From Caldifarciminota bacterium (lineage in GTDB: Bacteria > SDB-A), in NCBI GenBank assembly GCA_016929715.1, contig JAFGIG010000094.1, positions 1-44,535 on the forward strand: a DNA stretch of 44,535 bases, read 5' to 3'. Numbering within the stretch: the stretch's first letter is position 1; every line of letters starts with the position of its first letter. This document shows, one piece after another, positions 9,542-19,555 of the stretch. The position numbers and the translations under genes were made by a program. Under the pieces are notes generated by a model. The model was not told where the DNA came from, did no database searches, and was given only the letters and a program-made list of their open reading frames with translations.

Positions 9542-9922
9542 TCAGCGGCTTTTCTCCGGAATGATTGTAAAAGAGAACGAATCCGCTGGAGATGAGTTTT
9601 CCCAATCCCTCAGATAATAAAAAATAAGCCTGGCGGAAACATCGTGTCTGAGTGTTATGAAAAAGGTTTGTTCTCCGGAAGATCCGAGAAGACCTTCGGT
9701 TCCGGGACTGAAAAGCGAGCTGTCCAGAGACAGATTATTGCTTTCGTCTGTCTCAAAAAACCATTGATATCCCGTTGACGGATTGGAAGGAAGGACAACG
9801 TTAATAGAAGTGTTGGCTCTTGCAAGAACAGTGTCTCCGTCAAAAGAACTGTCGATGACTATATATTTCCTGCCGGAACATCCTAAAAACGAGAAGAGAG
9901 CCAGAAAATATAGCTTTTTCAT
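9542..9922 (-). CDS. Chagasin/I42-family-like peptidase inhibitor lipoprotein
   Basis: Lipobox FSFLGCSG; NPSTGYQW (canonical NPTTGY), GLLGSSGEQTF (GxxG loop), YLRDWE (RPW-like); start moved to ATG 9922. Confidence 0.75.
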   Translation of the reverse strand: MKKLYFLALFSFLGCSGRKYIVIDSSFDGDTVLARANTSINVVLPSNPSTGYQWFFETDESNNLSLDSSLFSPGTEGLLGSSGEQTFFITLRHDVSARLIFYYLRDWENSSPADSFSFTIIPEKSR

Positions 9923-9923
9923 G

Positions 9924-10568
9924 TCAATCAACCATCACCTGAATTGGTTCAGCATCCTTTACGAAAAAGACTCCTTCAAAAAGGATATCCGGATTTGACG
10001 AAGATTTAAGTCTCATTTTCCCCTTAAAAACCTTTATGAAAGTTTCTTCTATCACTATTGAATCTATATCTATCTCAAAGATGTCAAAAGAAAGGCTCTC
10101 TATTTGCCTTCCGTTGCTTGTGTATGATAATGTCATGACAGGATCAAGAGGAATATCGAAATACGTCTTCAGACCCACGTATTCCGAGTCGGTTACCGTA
10201 AAAGGGCATTCGGGGCTTACAAAATCCAAAACACATCCTGACGGAGTGCACAATCCGACGAAGACGGAAAACCTGCTCGTTGAAGGAAGCATCATTTCGA
10301 AAATCAATCCGTCTGCAGAATCAAGTTGTGAGGAAAAAGAAAGGGAAATGCTCGAAAAAGATCCTTCAGTAACCGAAGCTTCTGAAAAAGAAAGAACAAA
10401 ATCGCCTTCTTTGAGATGCGACAATCCTTCTGCGGCAGATAAATTGAAGGAAATATAATTTACTTCCGGTGCTTTGGTCGTCTGAGGATTGTCCTCCGGA
10501 CATGGTTTTTCGGAACAGCCGGCTCCGAGAAAAGTCAGACAAAGCAAAATGGAAAAGAGTGTTTTCAT
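9924..10568 (-). CDS. Uncharacterised lipoprotein
   Basis: MKTLFSILLCLTFLGAGCSEK lipobox; beta-rich; directly upstream of the chagasin-like gene on the same strand. Confidence 0.7.
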   Translation of the reverse strand: MKTLFSILLCLTFLGAGCSEKPCPEDNPQTTKAPEVNYISFNLSAAEGLSHLKEGDFVLSFSEASVTEGSFSSISLSFSSQLDSADGLIFEMMLPSTSRFSVFVGLCTPSGCVLDFVSPECPFTVTDSEYVGLKTYFDIPLDPVMTLSYTSNGRQIESLSFDIFEIDIDSIVIEETFIKVFKGKMRLKSSSNPDILFEGVFFVKDAEPIQVMVD

Positions 10569-11442: not shown

Positions 11443-13224
11443 ATGATTTTTTCCGGTTATAAAACAGCTCTTTCAGTTGTATTAAGGGCTTCTAAAAAAA
11501 TACTCACCGCGAGAATTTTCTTGACGACTGTAAGAGCTGTGTTCCCGGTAGTTATGCTTTATATAATCAAGCTGTTTGTCGATTCGGTGGCTGAAGGGAT
11601 GTCTTCTCAGGATGCGGAAAAGGCTTTCTTGAAGTCTATAATCCTGATTGTAGCCGCAGGTCTATCATACGCTTTGAGTTTTATTGCTGATTCTTTGAAC
11701 GAAATTCTTTCTGAATATCACTCCTTAAGAATAACGGACAAAGTTTTCGAAATGCTGCACGACAAATCTTCCGAGATAGATATTGCCTTTTACGAAAACC
11801 CTGATTACTATGACACTCTTCACAGAGCTCAAAGGGAAGCGCCTTACAGGCCTACGGCTATATTAAACCAGATGTTTTCTGTTTTTCAAAACTTTTTGAC
11901 TTTTATCGGTGTTGCGGCGCTGATCCTTTCTTTCAGCCGAATTGCGGGTATTGTCCTTCTCGCGGCTGTTGTTCCTGGAACGCTGGTTCAGCTCGCATTC
12001 GCTAAAATAGTGTATAAATGGCAGAAAAAAGTAACCAAACACGAAAGAGAAACCTGGTATTACAATTTTTTGCTTTCATCGGAACAAAACGCCAAAGAAC
12101 TAAGGCTTTTCGGTGCAGCTGGTCTTTTCAAGGAAAGATTCAATCAATTCAGAAAAATGCTCAGAGGGCAATTGCTTTCGATAAAGAAAAAAAGAGCAGG
12201 AGCGGACCTGGCGGCTCAGACTCTTTCTTCGGCGATTCTCGCCTCTCTTTTAGTATATCTCACTTCGCTGGCTTACAGCGGAGCTATGTCGCTTGGAAAC
12301 CTCGTAATGTTCTTTCAGGCTTTTCAGAGGGGACAGGGAAATTTAAGAGGAATTTTGGGTGGTTTCGTCGGTTTGTATGAAAGCGGTCTTTTCATGACTT
12401 ATTTTTCAGATTTTCTCAGCCTCAAAAGCGGCCTTAAAAAAGAGGGGGGCAAGACAAAGGCGGAAATAAGCAGCTTTTCGGAAATCTCAGTCAGAGAAGC
12501 CGCGTTCAAATATCCGGGTTCAAAAACTATGGCGATACAAGGCTTGAACATGAACTTCAGAAAGGGTGAAATAACAGCGATGGTCGGAGCAAACGGATCT
12601 GGCAAGACGACAGTCGCCAAGCTTCTATGCCGGTTTTACGATCCGGACGAAGGAGCAATTTTCGCAGACGGCGACAATATAAGAAGATTCGAACCTGAAG
12701 AGTGGAGAAAATTTATTTCAGCCTCTTTTCAGGATTTTCAGAAATATCAGCTGTCTGCCGAAGAAAATATCTGGCTCGGAGATATTTCTGGTGATAAAGA
12801 CAGCAACAGAATTTTGTCGGCTTCGGAAAAAACAGGAGCAAAAGAAGTAATCCAAAAACTTGAAAACGGCTTTTCAACACGGCTCGGAAGATGGTTCGAA
12901 AACGGAAGGGAACTAAGCGCCGGCGAGTGGCAGAAGATGGCTCTCGCAAGATGTATGTATAAAAACGCGGGTCTTTATATCCTCGACGAACCGGCGGCTT
13001 TTCTTGACTATATTTCGGAAAAAACCTTAATGAAAGCTCTGAAAGAAAAGGCTAAAAACTCGGCAATAATCCTTATCAGCCACAGGTTTTCCGATGTCGC
13101 GAAAGCCGATTACATCTATGTTTTAGACGGGGGCAGGATAGTCGAACAAGGGTCTCACAAAGAACTGATTCTAAAGAACGGATTGTATGCCGAATCATTT
13201 TTGGGCTCGGTCAAAAAAAACTGA
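11443..13224 (+). CDS. ABC exporter, fused permease and ATPase
   Basis: N-terminal TM domain; Walker A VGANGSGKTTVAKLL; variant signature LSAGEWQKMALARCM; Walker B LYILDEPAAFLD; H-loop LISHRFSDV. Confidence 0.92.
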   Translation: MIFSGYKTALSVVLRASKKILTARIFLTTVRAVFPVVMLYIIKLFVDSVAEGMSSQDAEKAFLKSIILIVAAGLSYALSFIADSLNEILSEYHSLRITDKVFEMLHDKSSEIDIAFYENPDYYDTLHRAQREAPYRPTAILNQMFSVFQNFLTFIGVAALILSFSRIAGIVLLAAVVPGTLVQLAFAKIVYKWQKKVTKHERETWYYNFLLSSEQNAKELRLFGAAGLFKERFNQFRKMLRGQLLSIKKKRAGADLAAQTLSSAILASLLVYLTSLAYSGAMSLGNLVMFFQAFQRGQGNLRGILGGFVGLYESGLFMTYFSDFLSLKSGLKKEGGKTKAEISSFSEISVREAAFKYPGSKTMAIQGLNMNFRKGEITAMVGANGSGKTTVAKLLCRFYDPDEGAIFADGDNIRRFEPEEWRKFISASFQDFQKYQLSAEENIWLGDISGDKDSNRILSASEKTGAKEVIQKLENGFSTRLGRWFENGRELSAGEWQKMALARCMYKNAGLYILDEPAAFLDYISEKTLMKALKEKAKNSAIILISHRFSDVAKADYIYVLDGGRIVEQGSHKELILKNGLYAESFLGSVKKN

Positions 13225-13258
13225 CGACGAAAAAGATAAGCCGGAAGTTTTTTCAAGA

Positions 13259-14461
13259 ATGGCAAAGATAATCTCTCCGGCTGAAAGATATTCCCCTCTG
13301 CCGGACATGCCTGACCATTACTGGCAAAAAATTGTCTCTCTTGCCTCAAAGCACGGAGTCACAGCTTATCTTCACGGAGTTTTAAAAGATAAAAAAAAAG
13401 TACCGCCTTCCGTGTTAAAAGATTTACGCGCTCTCTATGCCCCTCTTTGGAGAGATTCCATATTAATGTATGGTGTTTTTTCATCTCTGGCAGATTTATT
13501 CAGAGATGAAAAACTCGAATTTATGCTTTTAAAAGGTTTCCACGTAGCTGAGAGAGTTTACGGAGGATTAAAAAAAAGACCGATGCAGGACATAGACATT
13601 CTCGTCAGAAAAGAAGACGCAGAAAGAGCAGACAGAATTTTAAGCGAATTTGCCAGCCCTGAAAGATGGAACAGGACGTGGATTGAAAAACACGGCTATC
13701 ACATGGGTTATCTGAAACCTGTCTGCACAGGGCGGCAGGAAAAAGCTGTTAAAATCGAACTCCACTGGAATATTTTGCCTCCAGAGAGCCCTTTTTGTTT
13801 CTCAACGGAAGACATCTGGGAAAAAGCCCAAACCATGAGAATTTCCAAAAAAGAGATTAAAGTCATGTCAAAAGAGCATTTGCTTTTATACCTCTGCCTT
13901 CACCTTTCGTTTCAGCACATATTCTGTCTTAAGCTGATACACCTGCTGGATATTGCCATAATAATCCACACCGGTGATTTTTCTTGGGACAAATTCGCTG
14001 AATTAAGTGTAAAAACAGCTTCGACAAGGGCAGTTTGCGCTGTTTTCGGAGCGGTGGAAAGGGTTTTCGGGTTAAAACTTAATTCTTACATCACAGAGGA
14101 GATTAAAGAAAAAGACTATTACGGAAAAATTGTTGAAAACGCTCTCGTTCTCATCGAAGATGACCCGGTCATTCTTCACAGCGCTTTCAGCCGAATGGGG
14201 AAACACAAAGGAGCGGCAAAAAAAACAAGCAGTTTATTCTTCAGCTTTTTTCCGAAGCCCTCTGATTTGAAGGCTCTTCACGGGGCGGAGTCTTTTTTTC
14301 CCGATGTCATACTGGCATATATATACAGAATGAAAGAACTCTTCATAAAATACGGAGCCATTGCCTTTGAACTGGTGGCTGACGAAAAAAAATTCAGAAA
14401 ATACAGGCGTCATTCAAAAACGAGAAAGAGGATACTGAGCTGGATTTCGGAGAAGAACTGA
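13259..14461 (+). CDS. Nucleotidyltransferase-fold protein (NTP_transf_5-like)
   Basis: LLKGFHVAERVYGGLKKRPMQDIDILVRKEDAERADRIL and KIELHWNILPPESPF are typical; start inferred at ATG 13259 rather than 13187. Confidence 0.8.
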   Translation: MAKIISPAERYSPLPDMPDHYWQKIVSLASKHGVTAYLHGVLKDKKKVPPSVLKDLRALYAPLWRDSILMYGVFSSLADLFRDEKLEFMLLKGFHVAERVYGGLKKRPMQDIDILVRKEDAERADRILSEFASPERWNRTWIEKHGYHMGYLKPVCTGRQEKAVKIELHWNILPPESPFCFSTEDIWEKAQTMRISKKEIKVMSKEHLLLYLCLHLSFQHIFCLKLIHLLDIAIIIHTGDFSWDKFAELSVKTASTRAVCAVFGAVERVFGLKLNSYITEEIKEKDYYGKIVENALVLIEDDPVILHSAFSRMGKHKGAAKKTSSLFFSFFPKPSDLKALHGAESFFPDVILAYIYRMKELFIKYGAIAFELVADEKKFRKYRRHSKTRKRILSWISEKN

Positions 14462-14516: not shown

Positions 14517-14957
14517 ATGGACGGAAAAGAAGTTAAAATAACAGGCGTGTATTCTTTCGAAAAGAGGACAAGCCTCAAGCTGCCTTATTTCATAACCAAA
14601 ATTTCTGCCGGGTTTCCCTCTCCCGCGGGAGATTATGAAGAGAAAAAACTCGACTTAAACGAATTTTTAGTTAAACATCCCTCGGCCACCTTCTTCATCA
14701 AAGTTTCGGGAGACTCGATGATTGGTGCCGGTATTCACTCCGGGGATTTGCTTATTGTGGACAGATCACTCGAACCGTCCAACAATAAAATCGCAATAGT
14801 CGTTCTGGACGGAGAGTTCACCGTCAAACGGATTTTTATAAAAAAAGACAAACTGCTTCTTCTGCCTGAAAACCCGGATTTCAAACCTATCGAGGTAACG
14901 CCGGAGATGAATTGCGAGATATGGGGAATTGTGACATTCGTGATTCATCAGCTTTGA
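14517..14957 (+). CDS. umuD: UmuD-like S24 peptidase, polymerase V accessory subunit
   Basis: AGFPSPAGDYEEKKLDLNEFLVKHPSATFFIKVSGDSMIGAGIHSGDLLIVDRS...VLDGEFTVKR; A-G cleavage site, SxxM Ser and Lys present. Confidence 0.93.
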   Translation: MDGKEVKITGVYSFEKRTSLKLPYFITKISAGFPSPAGDYEEKKLDLNEFLVKHPSATFFIKVSGDSMIGAGIHSGDLLIVDRSLEPSNNKIAIVVLDGEFTVKRIFIKKDKLLLLPENPDFKPIEVTPEMNCEIWGIVTFVIHQL

Positions 14958-14967
14958 TTTATAGCGC

Positions 14968-16239
14968 ATGAAAAAAGGCTCTCCTGCGATAGCCCTTGTC
15001 GACTGCAATAATTTTTATGTCTCATGCGAGAGAGTTTTTGATCCGTCTCTAATGAATGTCCCTGTAATAATTTTGTCAAATAACGATGGATGTGTGGTTT
15101 CGAGATCCAATGAAGCAAAGACTCTCGGGATTTCTATGGGAACGCCGGTTTTCAAGATACCGGATGTCATAAAAAAAAATAAAGTCCAGGTCTTTTCCTC
15201 GAATTATGCACTTTATCAGGACATGTCCTCAAGAGTCATGCAGACATTGAAGGAATTTTCTCAGGAAATGGAAATTTATTCGATTGACGAGGCTTTTCTG
15301 TCTCTGCGAGGTTTTGGTAAAGATGATTTAATATCCATCGGAGAAAAAATAAAAAAAACCGTCTACAAATGGACAGGAATACCCGTTTCCGTGGGTATTT
15401 CTCCCACAAAGACTTTGTCTAAAGTCGCGGGGGATATCGCTAAGAAAAAAGAAAACGGCGTATTTTGTGTTTTCGACTCAGCTCAGACAAATGACATTCT
15501 TTCCAAAACAGAAGCAGTTGAAGTATGGGGAATTGGCGGCAGGCAGGCGGCCAAACTCGCCGTAAAAGGAATTTTCACGGCTTTAGATCTAAAAAACGCC
15601 GACAGAAAGTGGGTTCAAAATAACCTGACTGTCACTGGAGTCAAAACGGTTCTGGAGCTCAACGGCATTTCATGCATTGATCTCGAAACAGTCGTCCCTG
15701 ACAAAAAAGGCATAGCATGTTCCAGATCTTTCGGAAAACCGGTCACAAGCATCGAAGAGATAAAAAAAGCCCTTTCAGAATATGTCACGACAGCCGCTGA
15801 AAAAATGAGACGTCAAAAAACTGTTCCTTTGTCCCTTACTGTTTTCATAACTACGGATAGATTCAGTGAAAACGCCAGTCAATACGCGAATTGGACTGAA
15901 ATGAAAATTTCTGAACCGACGGCGTACACTCCAGCTCTAATTAAATATGCTTATTCGGGACTGGAGAAAATTTACAGGAAAGGATACCAATACAAAAAAG
16001 CCGGCGTTGTATTCACCGGATTGATAGGAGAAGACGATGTTTCCCCTCCTTTTTTCGGGGAAGACAACAAAAGACAAAATTTAATAAATACAGTCGACGT
16101 GATAAACAAAAAGATGGGAAAAAATACTGTCAGTTTCGGACCTTCCGAACGGGAAGGGAATTGGAAGATGAGAAGAAATTTTCTTTCAAAGAAATTTACA
16201 ACCGACTGGAATGAGCTTCCAGTTGTCTACTGTGACTGA
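14968..16239 (+). CDS. umuC: UmuC-like Y-family DNA polymerase
   Basis: [65 protein letters not shown]-terminal DUF4113-like region. Confidence 0.96.
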
Positions 16240-16271: not shown

Positions 16272-17639
16272 TCAGATCACCTTTTTTAAAAGTTTTTGAG
16301 AGAGACAAGAAGCTTTATCAGCCACAAACTCCTCGTCAATACCGGTAAGTTTGCCTTTCCTTACAGCGACTTTGCCGTTTACTATGACATAATCAGCTGC
16401 ATGTGATATCCCTGTAAAGACGAGAGAAGCGACTGGATCTGAAAGGGATCCCGCTCTATCTAAACCGCCGAGGCTGAAAATTGCAAGGTCGGCGGCACTG
16501 CCCTCTTCTATTGTTCCTGAATTTTCAAAACCGAGCATTCGCGCTCCGTTTCTGCAGGCAAAACCGAGGACATCTCTCGCCGTCAGGGCGCCTGGTCCGC
16601 CGGAGACCCTCGCCAAAAGCATGGCATTCCTTGCCTCTCCGAGCATATCTGAGCTGTCATTTGAAGCGGATCCGTCAACGCCGAGCGAAATCCTTATTCC
16701 GAGATCTTTCATTTCTTTAATTCTCGCGATTCCCGAGCCCAAACGCATATTTGATGTCGGGCAGTGCGAAATACCCGTATCTGTCTCTGAGAGAATTTGA
16801 AGTTCGCGGTCGTCGAACCATATACCGTGAGCGTAAAAAACATCTCTGCCTGTCCAATCCAATTCCAGCATTAAATCGAGAGGTCTTTTTCCGTAAATCT
16901 CCATGCAGTAGTCGTCTTCATCGCGGGTCTCGGCGAGATGGGTGTGAAGAAAGACTTTTTTTTCACGTGCGAGAAGAGCGGATTCTTTCATAACTTTTTT
17001 TTCAACAGTGAATGGACTGCATGGTGCGAGAATGACTTTCGTCATTGAATAAGGAGACGGGTCATGAAATCTGTCTATTGACGATTCCATGTCTTTCAGC
17101 ACTGTTTCGGGGGATTGAACTATATTATCGGGGGGCAGTCCGCCGTCGCTTTTGCCTCTCGTCATTGTTCCTCGGGAAGGAGCGAACCTTATGCCTGTTT
17201 TCATAGCCGCTTCGAATTGAATTTCGAGGATGCTTTTTGAGATGTCGGGCGGGTATAGATACATATGGTCAGTTGAAATCGAGCATCCGGTTTTTAAAAG
17301 CTCTCCGCATGCAATGAGAGTGGAATAAAAGATACATTCCTCGTCTATGTCAGACCATACATTGTATAGAAATGACAGCCAGTCAAAAAGTTTGGCATTC
17401 TGGACCTGGCGGACATTTCTTGTCAAGGACTGAAACATGTGATGATGGGTGTTTGCAAAACCCGGGACTACGATATGGTTGCTGCAGTCTATGGTCTCCC
17501 CCGAAAAATCCGTGCCGATTTCGATGGATCTTGAAATTTTAACTATTCTGTTTTGCTTTATTAATATGTCGCTTCCCAGCAGTTCCTCTTGGTTTTCGTC
17601 AAAGGTCGCTATAAAACGGCAGTTTTTGAGCAATATCAT
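16272..17639 (-). CDS. Amidohydrolase, 8-oxoguanine deaminase type
   Basis: NTHHHMFQSLTR, DGGLPPDNIVQSPE, LAPCSPFTV, HTHLAETRDEDDYC, GISHCPTSNMRLGSGI, GVDGSASNDSSDM match the 8-oxoguanine deaminase subgroup. Confidence 0.85.
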   Translation of the reverse strand: MILLKNCRFIATFDENQEELLGSDILIKQNRIVKISRSIEIGTDFSGETIDCSNHIVVPGFANTHHHMFQSLTRNVRQVQNAKLFDWLSFLYNVWSDIDEECIFYSTLIACGELLKTGCSISTDHMYLYPPDISKSILEIQFEAAMKTGIRFAPSRGTMTRGKSDGGLPPDNIVQSPETVLKDMESSIDRFHDPSPYSMTKVILAPCSPFTVEKKVMKESALLAREKKVFLHTHLAETRDEDDYCMEIYGKRPLDLMLELDWTGRDVFYAHGIWFDDRELQILSETDTGISHCPTSNMRLGSGIARIKEMKDLGIRISLGVDGSASNDSSDMLGEARNAMLLARVSGGPGALTARDVLGFACRNGARMLGFENSGTIEEGSAADLAIFSLGGLDRAGSLSDPVASLVFTGISHAADYVIVNGKVAVRKGKLTGIDEEFVADKASCLSQKLLKKVI

Positions 17640-17669: not shown

Positions 17670-17700
17670 AAACGGCGCCTGTTATGTTTCGGCGCCGTTT
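17670..17700 (-). terminator. Strong GC hairpin, likely terminator of minus-strand small-ORF unit
   Basis: AAACGGCGCC, 11-nt loop, GGCGCCGTTT; on the minus strand followed by ATTTTAAAAAG. Confidence 0.65.
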
Positions 17701-17717
17701 GGGTCAAGAAAATGATA

Positions 17718-17831
17718 TCAGAAGGTTCTGAAATATGGAAGAGCTTCTTCGAATGCGGATATCCTCGATTCATCGAAAAAGATTACAGATTGTATTTCGA
17801 GATCATTGTTTATGGAAAGCATCTTTTTCAT
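17718..17831 (-). CDS. Small ORF B, 37 aa: MKKMLSINNDLEIQSVIFFDESRISAFEEALPYFRTF
   Basis: ATG behind GAGGTGAAAA; stop just before the 17670-17700 hairpin; below the ORF-track cutoff. Confidence 0.5.
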   Translation of the reverse strand: MKKMLSINNDLEIQSVIFFDESRISAFEEALPYFRTF

Positions 17832-17841
17832 TTTTCACCTC
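17822..17841 (-). repeat. Copy 2 of exact 20-nt RBS/start repeat (other copy 17950-17969)
   Basis: GAGGTGAAAAATGAAAAAGA on the minus strand, identical in both copies, offset 128 bp. Confidence 0.9.
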
Positions 17842-17959
17842 ACCATATAAAAAGAGGGTTCCAGGAAAATGAAGGGACTTCTTTTTTAAGCAAACGATGC
17901 GTCAGTTTTTTTCTCAAAGTCTTCTTTTGAATTGTCTTTGCTGTCGATTTCTTTTTCAT
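17840..17959 (-). CDS. Small ORF A, 39 aa: MKKKSTAKTIQKKTLRKKLTHRLLKKEVPSFSWNPLFIW
   Basis: ATG behind GGGAGGTGAAAA; stop overlaps the RBS of ORF B; an overlapping GTG frame (VKNEKEIDSKDNSKEDFEKKTDASFA) is also open, so the coding frame is uncertain. Confidence 0.45.
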   Translation of the reverse strand: MKKKSTAKTIQKKTLRKKLTHRLLKKEVPSFSWNPLFIW

Positions 17960-17969
17960 TTTTCACCTC
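17950..17969 (-). repeat. Copy 1 of exact 20-nt RBS/start repeat
   Basis: GAGGTGAAAAATGAAAAAGA on the minus strand. Confidence 0.9.
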
Positions 17970-17994
17970 CCTGTTTCAAGCAATATTTAATTAA

Positions 17995-18025
17995 CAAACA
18001 TGCTTAATATATTAAACACTGTTTG
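17995..18025. promoter_or_regulatory. Extended dyad, candidate TetR operator
   Basis: CAAACATGCTTAATATATTAAACACTGTTTG; core TTAATATATTAA is a perfect palindrome; outer CAAACA/TGTTTG arms pair. Confidence 0.55.
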
Positions 18026-18037
18026 ATGTTTTGTCAA
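18009..18037 (-). promoter_or_regulatory. Consensus-like promoter for minus-strand small-ORF unit
   Basis: TTGACA (18037-18032), 17-bp spacer, TAATAT (18014-18009) reading on the minus strand. Confidence 0.75.
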
Positions 18038-18110
18038 GTATTTTTTTTTCTTTACTTCTATTAATTTTATTTATATTATGAATTAGTATGCATCTTTTTC
18101 GGAAAGAGGA

Positions 18111-18719
18111 ATGAATAAAAGAGAAGTAAGAAAAAAAAGAACTACAGATTATTTTGTCTTGGCGGCTTGTCAAATAATCGAAAATGATGGTTTAAACGCA
18201 TTGAGCGTCAGAAAGGTCGCGGACATAGCAGGATATCATTATGCGACTTTATATTCATATTTTAAAGATGTATATGAATTGAAATTTCTGGCGGCTCTCA
18301 AGTTCATGGACGATATATATGAATATATGCTCAATTTTACAAAAGATATGGAATTTTCGTCCCCTGTTGAACACTATCTCTGGGCTAGAAAGGCAATCGC
18401 TTATTTTGCCTTCGAACACCAAGACGCTTACAGGCTGATAAATTTTACTTATTTCGGCGAAAATACCAAAAATGTGATATCCAAACTAATGCAAACCAAA
18501 GCGGCTGTTTTGGAAAACACTCTTTTTGACAATAGTTCAGAATTTTTGGGCATTTCAAAACAGAGAGCGCAACTTCTGCACACGATTGTCCGTTCGATTT
18601 TTCACAGTTATTTTACAGGATATTCAGAGAAAAGATTTGAAAAGAACAAAGATGACGTAGTCAAAAACTACGGGGCTGAGATAAAGGAGATCTTTGAAAT
18701 ATTCAGATCCGCGTCGTGA
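18111..18719 (+). CDS. TetR-family transcriptional regulator
   Basis: N-terminal HTH LSVRKVADIAGYHYATLYSYFKDVYELKFLA; AAAGAGGA RBS. Confidence 0.9.
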   Translation: MNKREVRKKRTTDYFVLAACQIIENDGLNALSVRKVADIAGYHYATLYSYFKDVYELKFLAALKFMDDIYEYMLNFTKDMEFSSPVEHYLWARKAIAYFAFEHQDAYRLINFTYFGENTKNVISKLMQTKAAVLENTLFDNSSEFLGISKQRAQLLHTIVRSIFHSYFTGYSEKRFEKNKDDVVKNYGAEIKEIFEIFRSAS

Positions 18720-18727
18720 AATAAGAT

Positions 18728-18756
18728 TTGCATTAGGCCTGATTAGTGATTAAAAT
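18728..18756 (+). promoter_or_regulatory. Candidate promoter of the repeat lipoprotein
   Basis: TTGCAT-N17-TAAAAT, about 40 nt before the ATG at 18797. Confidence 0.45.
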
Positions 18757-18796
18757 TAGCTTCTGCATATGTAAAAAAGGAAGAAAGGAGAGAAAG

Positions 18797-19555
18797 ATGA
18801 ACAAAAAAACAACCGCGTTTCTGTTTTGCGTGGTCTTTTTTGCGCTGATTGCCGCAGGATGCAGTCAAAAACCCGCAACCCCGGCTGCCGATACTACAGT
18901 TCCAGATACTACTACGGTCGTTGAAGAAGCCTGGGTTAAACTCGACAAAAGCGTGTATGGACCGGACGAAATAATAACAGTCGAATACATGGCACTCGAA
19001 GAGTTCGACGACAATGCGTGGATAGGACTTATTCCCTCTGAAGTTCCTCACGGGGACGAAGAAGAAAACGACGAATATGACCTTCAGTATCATCTTATAG
19101 GTTCCGACCTCTCAGGAGAAATTACTTTTATCGCCCCGACTGAACCCGGACTTTACGATATAAGAATGTTTACCAGCGATTTTGAAGGAGTCGAAGTCAC
19201 ATACCAGACTTTCGAGGTTCTCGAAGAAGGCGTCTATGATTACAGCGCGGTAAGCGCATATATAGATCTCGAAAAAGCTGAGTTCGAACCCGGAGAGGAA
19301 ATTGAAGTAAGTTTCACGGTGTCTGAAAAATTGAGCCCTTCCGCATGGCTGGGTTTAATTCCTTCTGAAATTGAACACGGAGACGAAGAAGAATGTGATA
19401 AATACGACCTCGATTATGAATATCTTGAGGAGAAACTCGAAGGCAGTTTTGTTTTTTACGCTCCTGACGAACCCGGCTCATACGATTTCAGGCTTTTTGA
19501 CAGTGATGACGGCGGAAAGGAAATCACATATACGACATTTACTGTTGCAGAATAA
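18797..19555 (+). CDS. Lipoprotein with two tandem copies of an uncharacterised ~100-aa beta domain
   Basis: MNKKTTAFLFCVVFFALIAAGCSQK lipobox; repeat 1 AWIGLIPSEVPHGDEEENDEYDLQY, repeat 2 AWLGLIPSEIEHGDEEECDKYDLDY; start 18797 after GAAAGGAGAGAAAG. Confidence 0.8.
   Translation: MNKKTTAFLFCVVFFALIAAGCSQKPATPAADTTVPDTTTVVEEAWVKLDKSVYGPDEIITVEYMALEEFDDNAWIGLIPSEVPHGDEEENDEYDLQYHLIGSDLSGEITFIAPTEPGLYDIRMFTSDFEGVEVTYQTFEVLEEGVYDYSAVSAYIDLEKAEFEPGEEIEVSFTVSEKLSPSAWLGLIPSEIEHGDEEECDKYDLDYEYLEEKLEGSFVFYAPDEPGSYDFRLFDSDDGGKEITYTTFTVAE

Follow-up and report, generated by a model that had tools for sequence, protein, structure and literature searches.

Two short open reading frames lie on the minus strand, with a repressor gene on one side and an enzyme gene on the other, in the 44,535-nucleotide stretch of DNA analyzed here (the window), which raises the question of whether they belong to a genuine transcription unit and, if so, what the unit produces and how it is controlled. 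Small-ORF units of this type are passed over by gene callers. Read along the minus strand, positions 17670–18037 hold first a promoter, then small ORFs of 39 and 37 aa, each led by a Shine-Dalgarno site, and last a terminator hairpin. The features of the locus are as follows.

18111–18719, plus strand: divergent TetR-family regulator (202 aa, TetR_N above the cut-off)
18051–18079, plus strand: putative tetR promoter, TTTACT-17-TATTAT (GTAAAG, the complement of its −35 hexamer, is conserved in the genus)
18032–18037, minus strand: −35 hexamer TTGACA of the small-ORF promoter (CTTGAC and the next A residues are invariant in 4/4 genomes)
18013–18025, no strand assigned: putative TetR operator, palindrome (C/T)AAACANTGTTT(A/G), between the −35 and −10 hexamers of the small-ORF promoter
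18009–18014, minus strand: −10 hexamer TAATAT of the small-ORF promoter, with a 17-nt spacer from the −35 hexamer
17840–17959, minus strand: ORF A (39 aa), cationic (net +11), ending in SWNPLFIW-stop, Shine-Dalgarno GGGAGGTG
17718–17831, minus strand: ORF B (37 aa), core FFDESRISAFEE, with an 8-nt gap from the ORF A stop
17670–17700, minus strand: intrinsic-terminator-like hairpin, perfect 10 bp, 17 nt past the ORF B stop
16272–17639, minus strand: amidohydrolase, 8-oxoguanine deaminase-like (455 aa), 30 nt past the hairpin

The small-ORF promoter, TTGACA-N17-TAATAT, is a 10/12 match to the consensus. On the minus strand, GGGAGGTGAAAA precedes the start of ORF A, and the ribosome site of ORF B, GAGGTGAAAA, overlaps the TGA stop of ORF A. 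The hairpin (loop of 11 nt, −18.6 kcal/mol, z −4.5) is followed by a weak U-tract, UUUAUUUU. A simple terminator scan did not call it, because the loop is over the limit of the scan and the U-tract is short. The first-pass annotation had described the promoter, the two ORFs with their ribosome sites, the overlapped stop, the 10-bp hairpin, and the very basic character and Trp/Phe-rich tail of ORF A just as we find them; it lacked the divergent TetR gene, the palindrome in the promoter, and the conservation of the motif at the ORF A C-terminus. ORFs A and B are the sole tandem pair of Shine-Dalgarno-led ORFs of 25–60 aa on both strands of the 44.5-kb window, and both congeners also carry the ORFs, similarly spaced, and the terminator, so the unit is more than a chance arrangement. 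A genuine, un-annotated small-ORF transcription unit between the repressor gene and the enzyme gene is thereby supported at the sequence level.

The comparison set consists of four genomes from the same phylum: that of the window (G000), two congeners (G001 and G002), and one from a sister genus (G003). The coding and operator evidence comes from three to four genomes, and this small sample is its main weakness. In G002, tetR and the small-ORF unit are on two contig ends, and we infer their adjacency there. All three genus genomes have ORF A and ORF B at corresponding positions. The frameshifts and loss of conservation that the first-pass annotation had proposed to look for in relatives did not occur, as both ORFs are kept in the two congeners.

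The ORF A sequences are MKKKSTAKTIQKKTLRKKLTHRLLKKEVPSFSWNPLFIW in the window, MKVLKKKKINGKKILKKKIKGQKPMTERFYLSWNPLFLW in G001, and MKKVVLKKENTKKSINKRIREHKSKTARYLFSWNPLFIW in G002. Each is 39 aa long, they align without gaps, and their net charges range from +10 to +12. The C-terminus, SWNPLF[IL]W directly before the stop codon, is invariant among the three. The in-frame similarity score of ORF A exceeds those of all 5000 column shuffles, and the variable columns in the tail fall on third codon positions (6/8) or on first positions with synonymous or I/L exchanges (2), never on second positions. In ORF B, the motif [FY]DES[KR]I..F is kept across the genus, and the in-frame score of its 15-residue core is equaled by only 3 of 5000 shuffles. 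The acidity ascribed to ORF B by the first-pass annotation is not a conserved trait, as the net charges are −2, 0, and +2. In profile searches, each of the three genus genomes has a single orthologue of each ORF, at E values of 1e-17 to 4e-24; this shows single copy and is not independent proof, since the profiles were built from the same three genomes. DNA similarity detectable in the congeners is limited to the promoter and the leader up to the ORF A start. The in-frame conservation indicates that both ORFs are most likely protein-coding.

The spacing of the unit is also kept. The ORF A start is 75–79 nt past the −35 hexamer and the hairpin is 17–19 nt past the ORF B stop in the four genomes, counting the ORFs of the G003 unit described below, and the hairpin sequences are mutually unrelated despite this near-equal distance. 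The gap between the ORF A stop and the ORF B start is 8, 4, and 8 nt in the three genus genomes, which suggests translational coupling of the two ORFs; the ribosome site of ORF B is weak in G001.

Relatives of the two proteins were sought more widely. Neither ORF matches Pfam, NCBIfam, PHROGs, or PADLOC, including the toxin/antitoxin and defense families therein; Rfam covariance models give no match in the whole window; no copies of ORF A were found in plasmids and phages; and SWNPLF[IL]W is absent from the viral contigs searched. The single exact match of SWNPLF[IL]W in genome contigs (Thioclava) overlaps the beginning of a different gene-like frame and is attributed to chance, and a profile search of 98 genomes for a wider ORF A family is significant in the genus only, the remainder being Lys-rich noise. 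Literature searches returned neither a mention of SWNPLF nor a description of an equivalent unit. The two proteins have so far been found in one bacterial genus only.

The position of the palindrome should be noted, since it bears on the control of the unit. Within the promoter of the window, the palindrome between the −35 and −10 hexamers reads CAAACAGTGTTTA. The pattern TTGACA-N4-9-AAACANTGTTT has exactly one match per genome in all four genomes (none in the reversed-pattern control), and every one of these sites stands before a unit of two small ORFs. The palindrome of the ORF A/B unit thus overlaps the promoter and is conserved among relatives, as is expected of an operator. A wider TetR regulon defined by the palindrome was considered and rejected, as the other sites inspected are mostly within or across coding ORFs and none stands behind TTGACA.

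The product of 18111–18719 has the TetR_N helix-turn-helix (PF00440, 26.3 bits against a cut-off of 24). The AlphaFold model (pLDDT 89.9) shows the full all-helical TetR fold with a ligand-binding C-terminal domain, and the best PDB fold match by Foldseek is Rv0078 (4.5e-5, TM 0.77/0.80), with RolR, EthR2, and FadR also matched. The conservation of the regulator is 72/64/42 %, and its recognition-helix region is near-identical. This TetR subfamily is present in 4 of 386 sampled genomes. No TetR relative was found in viral contigs, and a viral origin was dropped.

The G003 site lies at a different locus (C387), which has neither tetR nor the amidohydrolase gene. Behind the site come two small ORFs with Shine-Dalgarno sequences (a basic one of 31 aa and one of 44 aa) and a terminator, and GTAAAG is missing there, at a unit without tetR. 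Only a convergent gene is found downstream. Similarity of the G003 peptides to ORFs A and B is not significant in the comparisons or in shuffle tests (36 % and 11 %), so their homology is not demonstrable; an KIDFDELNYRSF stretch of the second peptide is similar to the ORF B core FDESKI..F, which could be chance. What we claim as shared between the genus and G003 is the promoter/operator and the layout, not the peptides as homologues.

G003 has its own tetR with a palindrome upstream, of the AAACATAGTTT type, and the recognition region of the encoded protein is nearly the same as that of the genus TetR. At L023:691-2648, this tetR orthologue is divergent from an imidazolonepropionase-like amidohydrolase gene, with an TAAACATAGTTTG site in the divergent region between them. 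This arrangement suggests that the imidazolonepropionase-like amidohydrolase may be a second target of the same regulator in G003. Because tetR is divergent from the small-ORF unit, the operator-like palindrome is unique, and tetR in G003 is also accompanied by the palindrome, the divergent TetR is likely to repress both the small-ORF unit and itself through the AAACANTGTTT palindrome, which the neighboring TetR very probably binds.

The gene downstream of the unit encodes an amidohydrolase whose NCBIfam score for 8-oxoguanine deaminase, 547 bits, is slightly over the cut-off of 532. It follows the unit in all three genus genomes at 23–39 nt from the hairpin to its start codon, so that a separate promoter would not fit between the hairpin and the gene. 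Since this distance is so short, read-through from the unit into the amidohydrolase gene is likely within the genus. An orthologue of this amidohydrolase in the sister genus is directly after a PLP-enzyme-like gene.

We favor, with modest confidence, the reading that the unit is an autonomous bicistronic operon, repressed by TetR, whose products are two small proteins acting in trans. TetR would bind CAAACAGTGTTTA between the −35 and −10 hexamers, shutting off the small-ORF promoter and limiting the tetR promoter, and a ligand of the repressor would release the small-ORF promoter. One short mRNA would then be made, from which ORF A is translated and then ORF B by coupling over the 8-nt gap. 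The hairpin would stop most transcripts, with some read-through to the amidohydrolase gene in this genus. In protein A, the invariant SWNPLF[IL]W tail probably docks on a conserved partner, and the polycationic helical N-terminal part would bind an anionic surface, which could be RNA, the ribosome, or a membrane; protein B would be the co-produced partner of protein A. The structure prediction for ORF A gives a helix at residues 4–27 with moderate confidence (pLDDT about 70), with the aromatic tail outside the helix; this would suit a protein that binds through its positive charge and docks by its C-terminus. The helix is not amphipathic, and a membrane-binding amphipathic helix was rejected, as the helical moments do not exceed those of shuffles.

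The main rival is a cis-acting leader or attenuator, in which ORF A is a ribosome-arrest or sensing peptide that, with ORF B and the hairpin, attenuates transcription of the amidohydrolase gene. We regard it as unlikely. The conservation of ORF A is highest in the last eight codons before the stop, as in TnaC or MsrDL (MYLIFM), and the unit shares with these systems a short ORF with conserved residues just before the stop and a terminator ahead of a downstream gene. Stalling of MsrDL at the stop codon is established to let RNA polymerase pass a terminator (PMC10314930). The constant presence of the closely spaced amidohydrolase gene, which has no room for a promoter of its own, also fits a leader and counts against the autonomous operon. 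However, about 140 nt lie between the ORF A stop and the hairpin, so a ribosome stalled at that stop would be unable to block the hairpin, and a second conserved ORF, itself kept as a protein, is in between. An antiterminator or a stall site overlapping the terminator was sought and rejected, as pairing to the 5′ arm of the hairpin is at most 6 bp in every genome (longest complement, 6 nt). A downstream gene that could be regulated is present throughout the genus and not at the stand-alone G003 unit, whose peptides, on the other hand, are not demonstrably homologous. The missing antiterminator, the distance from stop to hairpin, and the G003 unit without a gene to regulate favor action in trans, and the last weakens the leader role that the first-pass annotation had listed.

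That list also held toxin-like or secreted peptides and a small RNA. The unit could instead be a system of the small toxin-antitoxin, bacteriocin-like, or secreted signal-peptide kind, in which ORF A is the active peptide and ORF B its antidote or helper. This reading is in keeping with the shortness, strong basicity, and Trp/Phe-rich tail of ORF A and with two coupled genes conserved in single copy. We nevertheless consider it improbable: no signal sequence is apparent, no dedicated exporter, peptidase, or modification enzyme was found directly beside the unit, and the empty PADLOC and PHROGs searches and the absence of plasmid or phage copies of ORF A also speak against it. The tail does not vary between species, as a species-specific signal would, and control is likely to be by TetR, not by antitoxin autoregulation. 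A short unit with a promoter and a terminator could encode a small RNA with incidental ORFs, but both ORFs are strongly conserved in frame and have Shine-Dalgarno sites, the congener DNA similarity ends at the ORF A start, and Rfam has no match in the window. Because of the coding statistics, a non-coding RNA is very improbable; the small-ORF unit described in the first-pass annotation stands.

The bicistronic operon resembles the divergent, autoregulated targets of the TetR/AcrR, RamR, and FadR type in the TetR_N domain, the full TetR fold, the palindrome between the −35 and −10 hexamers, and the divergent gene. It differs in that the proximal cargo is two tiny proteins instead of a pump or an enzyme, in an operator not recognized from any described regulator, and in the rarity of the TetR subfamily. 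In size, conservation, and regulated expression from their own transcription unit, ORFs A and B are like the stress-induced proteins under 50 aa of the AcrZ, MgrB, and YohP class. However, no transmembrane segment is evident here, ORF A is polycationic with a C-terminal aromatic motif, and no sequence relationship to that class was found. More tentatively, ORFs A and B may be two new micro-protein families that form the main output of the TetR switch, and SWNPLF[IL]W may be a short motif of a new kind, for docking or ribosome arrest. If this is confirmed, a lineage of four compared genomes would have yielded two new families of small proteins together with an inducible switch that is ready for use, and the eight-residue C-terminal motif would be a direct handle for a partner search.

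Other neighbors of the locus were also observed. A predicted lipoprotein is encoded downstream of tetR (18746–19555), and a similar two-repeat lipoprotein is behind tetR in both congeners and not in the sister genus. A umuD/umuC-like translesion polymerase cassette occupies 14517–16239. An ABC transporter (MsbA/peptide-exporter-like) and then an uncharacterized nucleotidyltransferase (NTP_transf_5) are at 11443–14461, with no link drawn to the small ORFs. At 9542–9931, next to a cluster of a phosphate-type ABC transporter and PhoU, a Chagasin-type cysteine-peptidase inhibitor (Inhibitor_I42) is encoded.
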